Positions 1-2,050 of a stretch of DNA of 64,000 bases are shown here, piece by piece (within the stretch, counting starts at the first letter, position 1; every line of letters starts with the position of its first letter). Position numbers and translations under genes: made by a program. This DNA comes from Herminiimonas sp. (GTDB lineage: Bacteria; Pseudomonadota; Gammaproteobacteria; Burkholderiales; Burkholderiaceae_D), in NCBI GenBank assembly GCA_027310305.1, contig DAIDBD010000074.1, positions 1 to 64,000 on the forward strand, given 5' to 3'. The notes under the pieces are model-generated. The model was not told where the DNA came from and did not search any database. It was given only the letters and a program-made list of their open reading frames with translations.

Positions 1-1668
1 CCTGAATTTTGCATAAAAAGGGCAAGAATGCCGTAAGTGATTGATAAAATGTGAGTTATCCCTAAAACACATTCGTCCACACGAACACACCTTGCCCGAC
101 ATGAATTCTACCCCAGAGCAGCTCCGTTTCGCGTCGATTCCAGCGCATAGCGTCCGTGCCGATTTTGCCGGCGGCGGCTTGTCGTCCGATCTCGGTCCGG
201 TTTTGCTGCGCGGCGTCGATCTGCAGATTGGCTTGACCAGGCGCATTGCCGCAGGTTGTCTGACCGCCGCCATCAAAGTTACGTCGACCATTCGTACCAC
301 GATCTCTTGACGCAGCGGATTTACCAGATTGCCTGCGGCTACGAAGACGGCAACGACTCCAACAGCCTGCGCCACGACCCGATGTTCAAGCTGGGCGCGG
401 CCCGTCTTCCATTCGACGATGACACCGCGCTGGCGTCGGGGGCGACGATGTCACGCTTCGAGCACGCGGCCAGCCGGCAGGACATCTATCGTGTCAGCAA
501 GGCCCTCGTCGAGCAGTTCATTGCCAGCTTTGCCAGTGCGCCAAAGAGTTTGACTCTCGATCTGGATCACGCCGAGGACTCGGTCTACGGTCAGCAGCCA
601 CTGGCGTTCTATAATCACCACTATGGCGCCACCTGCTATCTGCCGCTGATGATCTTCGATGGCCAGTCCGGCGCACTGGTCGCGGCCGTGCTGCGGCCCG
701 GCAAGCGGCCGTTTGGCGATGAGAATGCGATGATCATGCGGCGCGTTCTGAAACTGATTCGCCGCCATTTCCCCGACACCCGCATTCTCGTGCGCGGCGA
801 CGGACACTTCAGCGGCCCCGAATTGATGGGGCTGATCGACAGCATGCCCAACGTCGACTTCATCTTCGGCTTCTCCTGCAACGTCAAGCTGCTGGCGATG
901 GCCGAGCCCACGAGGCTGCGCGCCATCGATCTGTGGGTCGCGGCGCAAACGCAGGACGACGTACCGAACGCGGTGCGCCTGTTCGATGAATTTGCCTACC
1001 AGGCGCGCTCATGGCCGAAAGCCTGGCGCGTGCTGTTGAAGGCCGAGGTCATGGCGCTTGGCGAAAACACCCGTTTCATCGTGACATCGCTACCCGGACT
1101 TGACGCCGGCACGTTGTACGAAGAAATTTACTGTGCTCGCGGCCAGGCCGAAAACTATATCAAGCATCTCAAGCACGATCTGGCGTCCGACCGCACGTCC
1201 TGCACCAGCTTTCTCGCCAACTGCATGCGCTTGCTGTTGCATGCCGCTGCCTATGTCTTGCACCAGCAACTACGCACCGAGGCGCTACAACATACCGCGC
1301 TGTCGCAGGCGCAGCCATCGACAGTCATTGCCAGGTTGTTCAAGATCGCCGTGAGAGTCCGGCAGTGCAAGAACAGGATCGTTCTGCATCTGCCCAGCGC
1401 GTGCCCGGTAAAACATCTACTGCAAACATTGACCGAACGGCTGTACCTGCCGACCCCGGCAAGGATCCTCAACTCGTCCTGACCCGGTCACGTCCGGTCT
1501 GCCGCGAATCGACCACACACCGCTAACCTTCAACCTTCATGCCGCTTCATTTGATGCCCTCTTCGATGGGGGCAAGGGGAGACTTCGCCCGACACATGGC
1601 GATCGCAGTCGATACCGGCCTGCTGCCGGCAAACCTGCGCTGTGTTGGCAGTTTATGAAACATTCAGG
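1..1668 (+). mobile_element. IS1380-family insertion sequence
   Basis: The first 17 bases (cctgaattttgcataaa) are matched, inverted, by bases 1652-1668 at 15 of 17 positions. Between them lies a single IS1380-type transposase reading frame. The 1668-base span agrees with the roughly 1.7 kb usual for the family. The right end stops four bases (ctag) before the first CRISPR repeat. Because the left end coincides with the window start, the left target duplication cannot be seen. The 3' non-coding part (1483-1651) holds nothing else recognisable. Confidence 0.8.
101..1482 (+). pseudogene. IS1380-family transposase, frameshifted
   Basis: This is a DDE transposase that would move the surrounding element. 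The N-terminal part (ATG at 101, FASIPAHSVRADF...) is in one frame and the rest (LSDRRHQSYVDH..., to the stop at 1480-1482) is in another. The switch falls at about 252-260. Restoring one T in 'ggttgtctgac' gives an uninterrupted AAGLSDRRHQ, so a single-base deletion is the simplest explanation. The DDE-type features are otherwise present: LDLDHAEDS, LVRGDGHFSG and the C-terminal RGQAENYIKHLK block. No programmed frameshift is known to me for IS1380, so this copy is probably inactive unless complemented. Confidence 0.8.
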
Positions 1669-1672
1669 CTAG

Positions 1673-2050
1673 GTATCGCCCGACCAATGTGTCGGGCGTG
1701 GATTGAAACAATTTAACTCCCCTTTAATCATGTTGCTGCCAAAGTATCGCCCGACCAATGTGTCGGGCGTGGATTGAAACTTGATATTGACTTCCCAGAC
1801 AAGGACTGGTGCTGTATCGCCCGACCAATGTGTCGGGCGTGGATTGAAACTATGGTCGCGTCAAACGTGCCGCGCGCCTTGGCGGTATCGCCCGACCAAT
1901 GTGTCGGGCGTGGATTGAAACAATAAAGGCGCAACGGCACGCCGAATGCCGCAGGGGGTATCGCCCGACCAATGTGTCGGGCGTGGATTGAAACTTATCG
2001 GACAAGACGGCCGCAAAAGATGCAGCGCGTATCGCCCGACCAATGTGTCG
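1673..2050 (+). CRISPR. CRISPR array, five full repeats plus one degenerate repeat, five spacers
   Basis: A 37-base repeat begins at 1673, 1744, 1814, 1885 and 1958 with no differences that I can see. A sixth copy at 2029 matches only its first 22 bases. The repeat starts GTATCGCCCGACC and ends GTGGATTGAAAC, and contains a perfect 8-bp stem, CGCCCGAC/GTCGGGCG. Spacers are 34, 33, 34, 36 and 34 bases. The ATTGAAAC 3' end and the decayed final repeat both place the leader on the left, where the IS element now sits. The 3' end resembles type I-C and some type III repeats, but the type cannot be fixed without cas genes, and none are in the window. Confidence 0.97.

Follow-up and report, generated by a model that had tools for sequence, protein, structure and literature searches.

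Transposition of an IS1380-family element into spacer 23 as the likely cause of a split type I-C CRISPR array

A single type I-C CRISPR array of 28 spacers has almost certainly been split in this genome by transposition of an IS1380-family element into spacer 23, where the only CTAG in the array was duplicated. The element and the last five spacers stand at the start of the window, the 64,000-nucleotide stretch of DNA analysed here, which lies on contig C61. The rest of the array is on contig C101, and the two halves are joined across an assembly gap. The first-pass annotation had placed an IS1380 copy four bases from the first repeat, and this proved correct: the element ends at 1668 and the repeat starts at 1673. 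Its suspicion of a contig edge at a repeat was also borne out, in that the window and contig C61 begin at the same base and the assembly breaks in the IS. The parts of the element are listed below.

1..1668, + strand: complete insertion sequence of the IS1380 family, lying within CRISPR spacer 23 (identified by transposase models, terminal inverted repeats and relatives that share its ends)
1..17, + strand: left terminal inverted repeat; base 1 is base 1 of contig C61
101..310, + strand: N-terminal piece of the transposase before the frameshift (Pfam DDE_Tnp_1_4 profile positions 6-42)
256..1482, + strand: remaining frame of the transposase (NF033539, E 5e-105; Pfam DDE_Tnp_1_4 profile positions 45-430)
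1652..1668, - strand: right terminal inverted repeat

The transposase scored 351.5 bits against the NCBIfam model for IS1380 transposases (NF033539, cut-off 180, E 5e-105) and also matched Pfam DDE_Tnp_1_4. The terminal inverted repeats are imperfect (CCTGAATTTTGCATAAA on the left and CCTGAATGTTTCATAAA on the right, read inward) and match at 15 of 17 positions. Copies of a related IS in genome G202 begin and end at the same bases and are 82% identical across 1-1668. In its transposase, its terminal inverted repeats, whose ends recur in other genomes, and its short target-site duplication, which is 4 bp in this subgroup, the element resembles the family described by NF033539; unlike the family norm, the window copy has a frameshifted transposase. 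One base is missing near 255 relative to six relatives, which breaks the transposase frame so that the N-terminal piece stops at 310, whereas in the G202 copies the frame stays open for 460 codons. Judging from this one-base gap against intact relatives, the window copy is probably stuck unless another copy helps. Misassembly of a repeated element could also account for the frameshift.

Five spacers had been reported to the right of the IS, and the window indeed holds five complete repeats followed by a decayed last copy, arranged as follows.

1669..1672, + strand: CTAG, the end of spacer 23 and the right-hand copy of the target-site duplication (left copy at C101:26548-26551)
1673..1709, + strand: first repeat in the window and number 24 in the restored array, identical to the C101 repeats
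1710..1743, + strand: spacer 24, 34 nt
1744..1780, + strand: repeat 25, identical
1781..1813, + strand: spacer 25, 33 nt
1814..1850, + strand: repeat 26, identical
1851..1884, + strand: spacer 26, 34 nt
1885..1921, + strand: repeat 27, identical
1922..1957, + strand: spacer 27, 36 nt
1958..1994, + strand: repeat 28, identical
1995..2028, + strand: spacer 28, the oldest, 34 nt
2029..2050, + strand: decayed terminal repeat at the leader-distal end of the array; the first 22 of 37 nt are kept and all 22 are identical

The repeat, present in identical copies at 1673, 1744, 1814, 1885 and 1958, is 37 nt long, with a stem of 8 pairs (-15.5 kcal/mol) and a ATTGAAAC tail, and is of type I-C. Across the genome, 23 further copies, all identical to those of the window, were found on C101, and none outside these two contigs. 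The last 141 bases of C101 (26,692 bp) are the start of the same IS, the pattern expected from assembler overlap at a repeat. On that contig spacer 23 (ATCGCTCATCTGGATCATGCTTCACTCTCCTAG) abuts the IS, and its last four bases, CTAG, are the target duplication that the first-pass annotation had suggested searching for (C101:26548-26551), so that the IS is bordered by CTAG on C101 as well as on C61. With the IS removed, spacer 23 is 33 nt long, compared to 33-36 nt for the other spacers, and the restored array spans 2,033 bp with 28 spacers. Apart from the 4-bp duplication, the insertion in spacer 23 caused no visible loss of sequence.

The leader, approximately 180 bp long, follows cas2 on C101. 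In the family members G029, G075, G016 and G052, cas2 is followed at an approximately equal distance by a closely similar leader; from this conservation the leader end, and with it the acquisition site, can be assigned to C101, away from the IS. The first-pass annotation had put the leader to the left and offered, as one possibility, that a longer array had been split; it proposed looking leftward for cas genes, a leader and more repeats, and all of these are present on C101, the upstream half. No leader was found on the right side of the array or between the IS and the first repeat of the window.

The cas operon on C101 is complete, in the order cas3-cas5-cas8c-cas7-hicBA-cas4-cas1-cas2. Cas5c, Cas8c (Csd1), Cas7 (Csd2), Cas4, Cas1c and Cas2 scored above their NCBIfam cut-offs, which assigns the locus to type I-C; for Cas3 the HD domain was above and the helicase core just below the cut-off. 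The hicBA pair lies between cas7 and cas4 (L045:12282-12724), HicA being named by Pfam and HicB, which had no Pfam hit, by position and by matches in relatives. At the cas1-cas2 junction a degenerate CRISPR repeat extends up to the start codon of cas2 (L045:14403-14440; alignment score 33, reached in 0 of 500 shuffles). L165 has a similar copy, L078 and perhaps L074 have weak ones, and most relatives have none.

The position of the insertion can be accounted for by target choice. The restored array of 2,033 bp contains a single CTAG, and the element sits exactly there; in the 64-kb window the tetramer is approximately 15-fold rarer than expected (16 found at 1-64000 compared to 239 expected from base composition). 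Both IS copies in G202 have CTAG on both sides, and the left flanks of other copies are CTAG (G083 and G051), CTAA (the second locus in this genome), TTAA (G052) and ATAG (G094). These few copies suggest that the IS favours CTAG-like sites. Given such a preference and a single CTAG in the array, no CRISPR-specific cause is needed. A literature search found no paper linking IS1380 to CTAG.

The consequences for the array would differ along its length. Spacer 23 is the only spacer disrupted. The leader, repeat 1 and the cas genes are untouched, and both acquisition and the use of spacers 1-22 should continue. Since type I-C repeats are processed by Cas5c, spacer 23, which has lost its downstream repeat, would yield either a guide with an IS-derived 3' end or one that is not matured. 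Spacers 24-28 are still flanked by complete repeats, with the one exception of spacer 28, whose downstream repeat is the decayed one, as it was before. They are now 1.67 kb further from the leader, depend on transcription that crosses the IS, and are probably weakly expressed or silent. The earlier suggestion was that, with no leader left next to the first repeat of the window, these five spacers can no longer be the site of new acquisition. Such a loss costs nothing, because new spacers are added beside the leader and these five had been the oldest of the array before the insertion. No match was obtained when spacers from the two halves of the array were compared with phage records, or when four spacers were scanned for exact matches in viral contigs.

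It is unlikely that the IS supplies or passes on enough transcription for spacers 24-28 still to give working guides, in which case the array would consist of two working units, the first driven by the leader and the second by or through the IS. A simple scan found no terminator-like site on the coding strand within the IS. It is also unlikely that the end of the IS serves as a replacement promoter for spacers 24-28. The IS lies in the orientation of the array, and some IS1380-family elements, e.g. ISEcp1, carry outward promoters. In a simple scan of the IS and array region, however, no promoter was found beyond chance, the sole promoter-like match lying inside the array (1703-1731) where one is expected by chance.

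The joining of the two halves depends on how IS ends are paired. The genome contains three left and two right ends of the IS, and at a second IS locus contigs C55 and C120 share a CTAA/CTAA duplication. Because the target duplications match within each locus (CTAG for C101 and C61, CTAA for C55 and C120), the flanks can be paired. C120 (L047:1-210) retains no more of the IS than its last 69 bases, and these are joined to a sequence rich in repeated GGTCA/CCGGAAT motifs that resembles the end of another mobile element.

These duplications also bear on whether spacers that once lay between 23 and 24 were lost by IS-mediated deletion or recombination. Such losses are produced by pairs of IS6110 copies in M. 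tuberculosis, where recombination between copies deletes spacers (PMC7708916). Recombination between two copies usually leaves differing flanking 4-mers, whereas here the duplications match at both loci and nothing is missing from spacer 23, and a deletion is very improbable. Equally improbable are two separate arrays with the same repeat and an IS end shared by coincidence or misassembly, for which there is room in the assembly gap between C101 and C61 and in the second IS locus, because the flanking 4-mers agree within each locus and not between them, the rejoined spacer is exactly 33 nt with one CTAG, and the halves are complementary, C101 having the leader and cas genes without an end repeat and C61 the end repeat without a leader. 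One array split by transposition remains the reading that we adopt.

The split of an array by an IS is already known in kind, and the present case is a clean but ordinary event. IS6110 is found in the CRISPR (direct repeat) locus of M. tuberculosis, in repeats or spacers, with a common copy in the orientation of the array (PMC7708916). The two cases are alike in having an IS inside an array that is thereby split. They differ in that IS6110 belongs to the IS3 family, the array is of type III-A and spacers are deleted, whereas here an IS1380-family element lies at a CTAG target in a type I-C array with no sign of deletion. On the Lactococcus plasmid pKLM an array is truncated beside a vestigial IS1194 (PMC3519859). 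There an IS remnant adjoins the leader-distal end of an array whose far part was lost, while in the present array the far part survives, its decayed end repeat included. No IS1380 copy was identified in 57 related arrays, where the long gaps consisted of N runs or of other cargo (L108, L145 and L165).

The hicBA pair has counterparts in other type I-C loci. In a survey covering L045 and the intervals of L090-L169, 61 of the loci examined had a cas7-cas4 stretch of 150-4,000 bp. An Unstab_antitox gene was present in 36 of these 61, on the strand opposite to the cas genes and mostly with a ParE-like toxin gene; hicB and/or hicA in approximately 21, in the cas direction; and DUF433 in 5, mostly with DUF5615. 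These classes overlap, some stretches holding more than one. A second Cas3-like gene of approximately 740 codons, with HD and helicase motifs recognised by eye, lies between cas7 and cas4 in L099, L100, L150 and L169. A limited literature search found no paper clearly describing toxin-antitoxin modules between cas7 and cas4.

The value of the split array lies in its being clean and explained, the single CTAG accounting for the place. It shows how spacers come to be undercounted when a short-read assembly breaks an array at an IS copy, and it allows the reach of transcription from a leader to be tested in a natural setting. The toxin-antitoxin genes may be worth more than the split itself: standing between the interference and adaptation genes, they bear on whether cells depend on keeping the operon.
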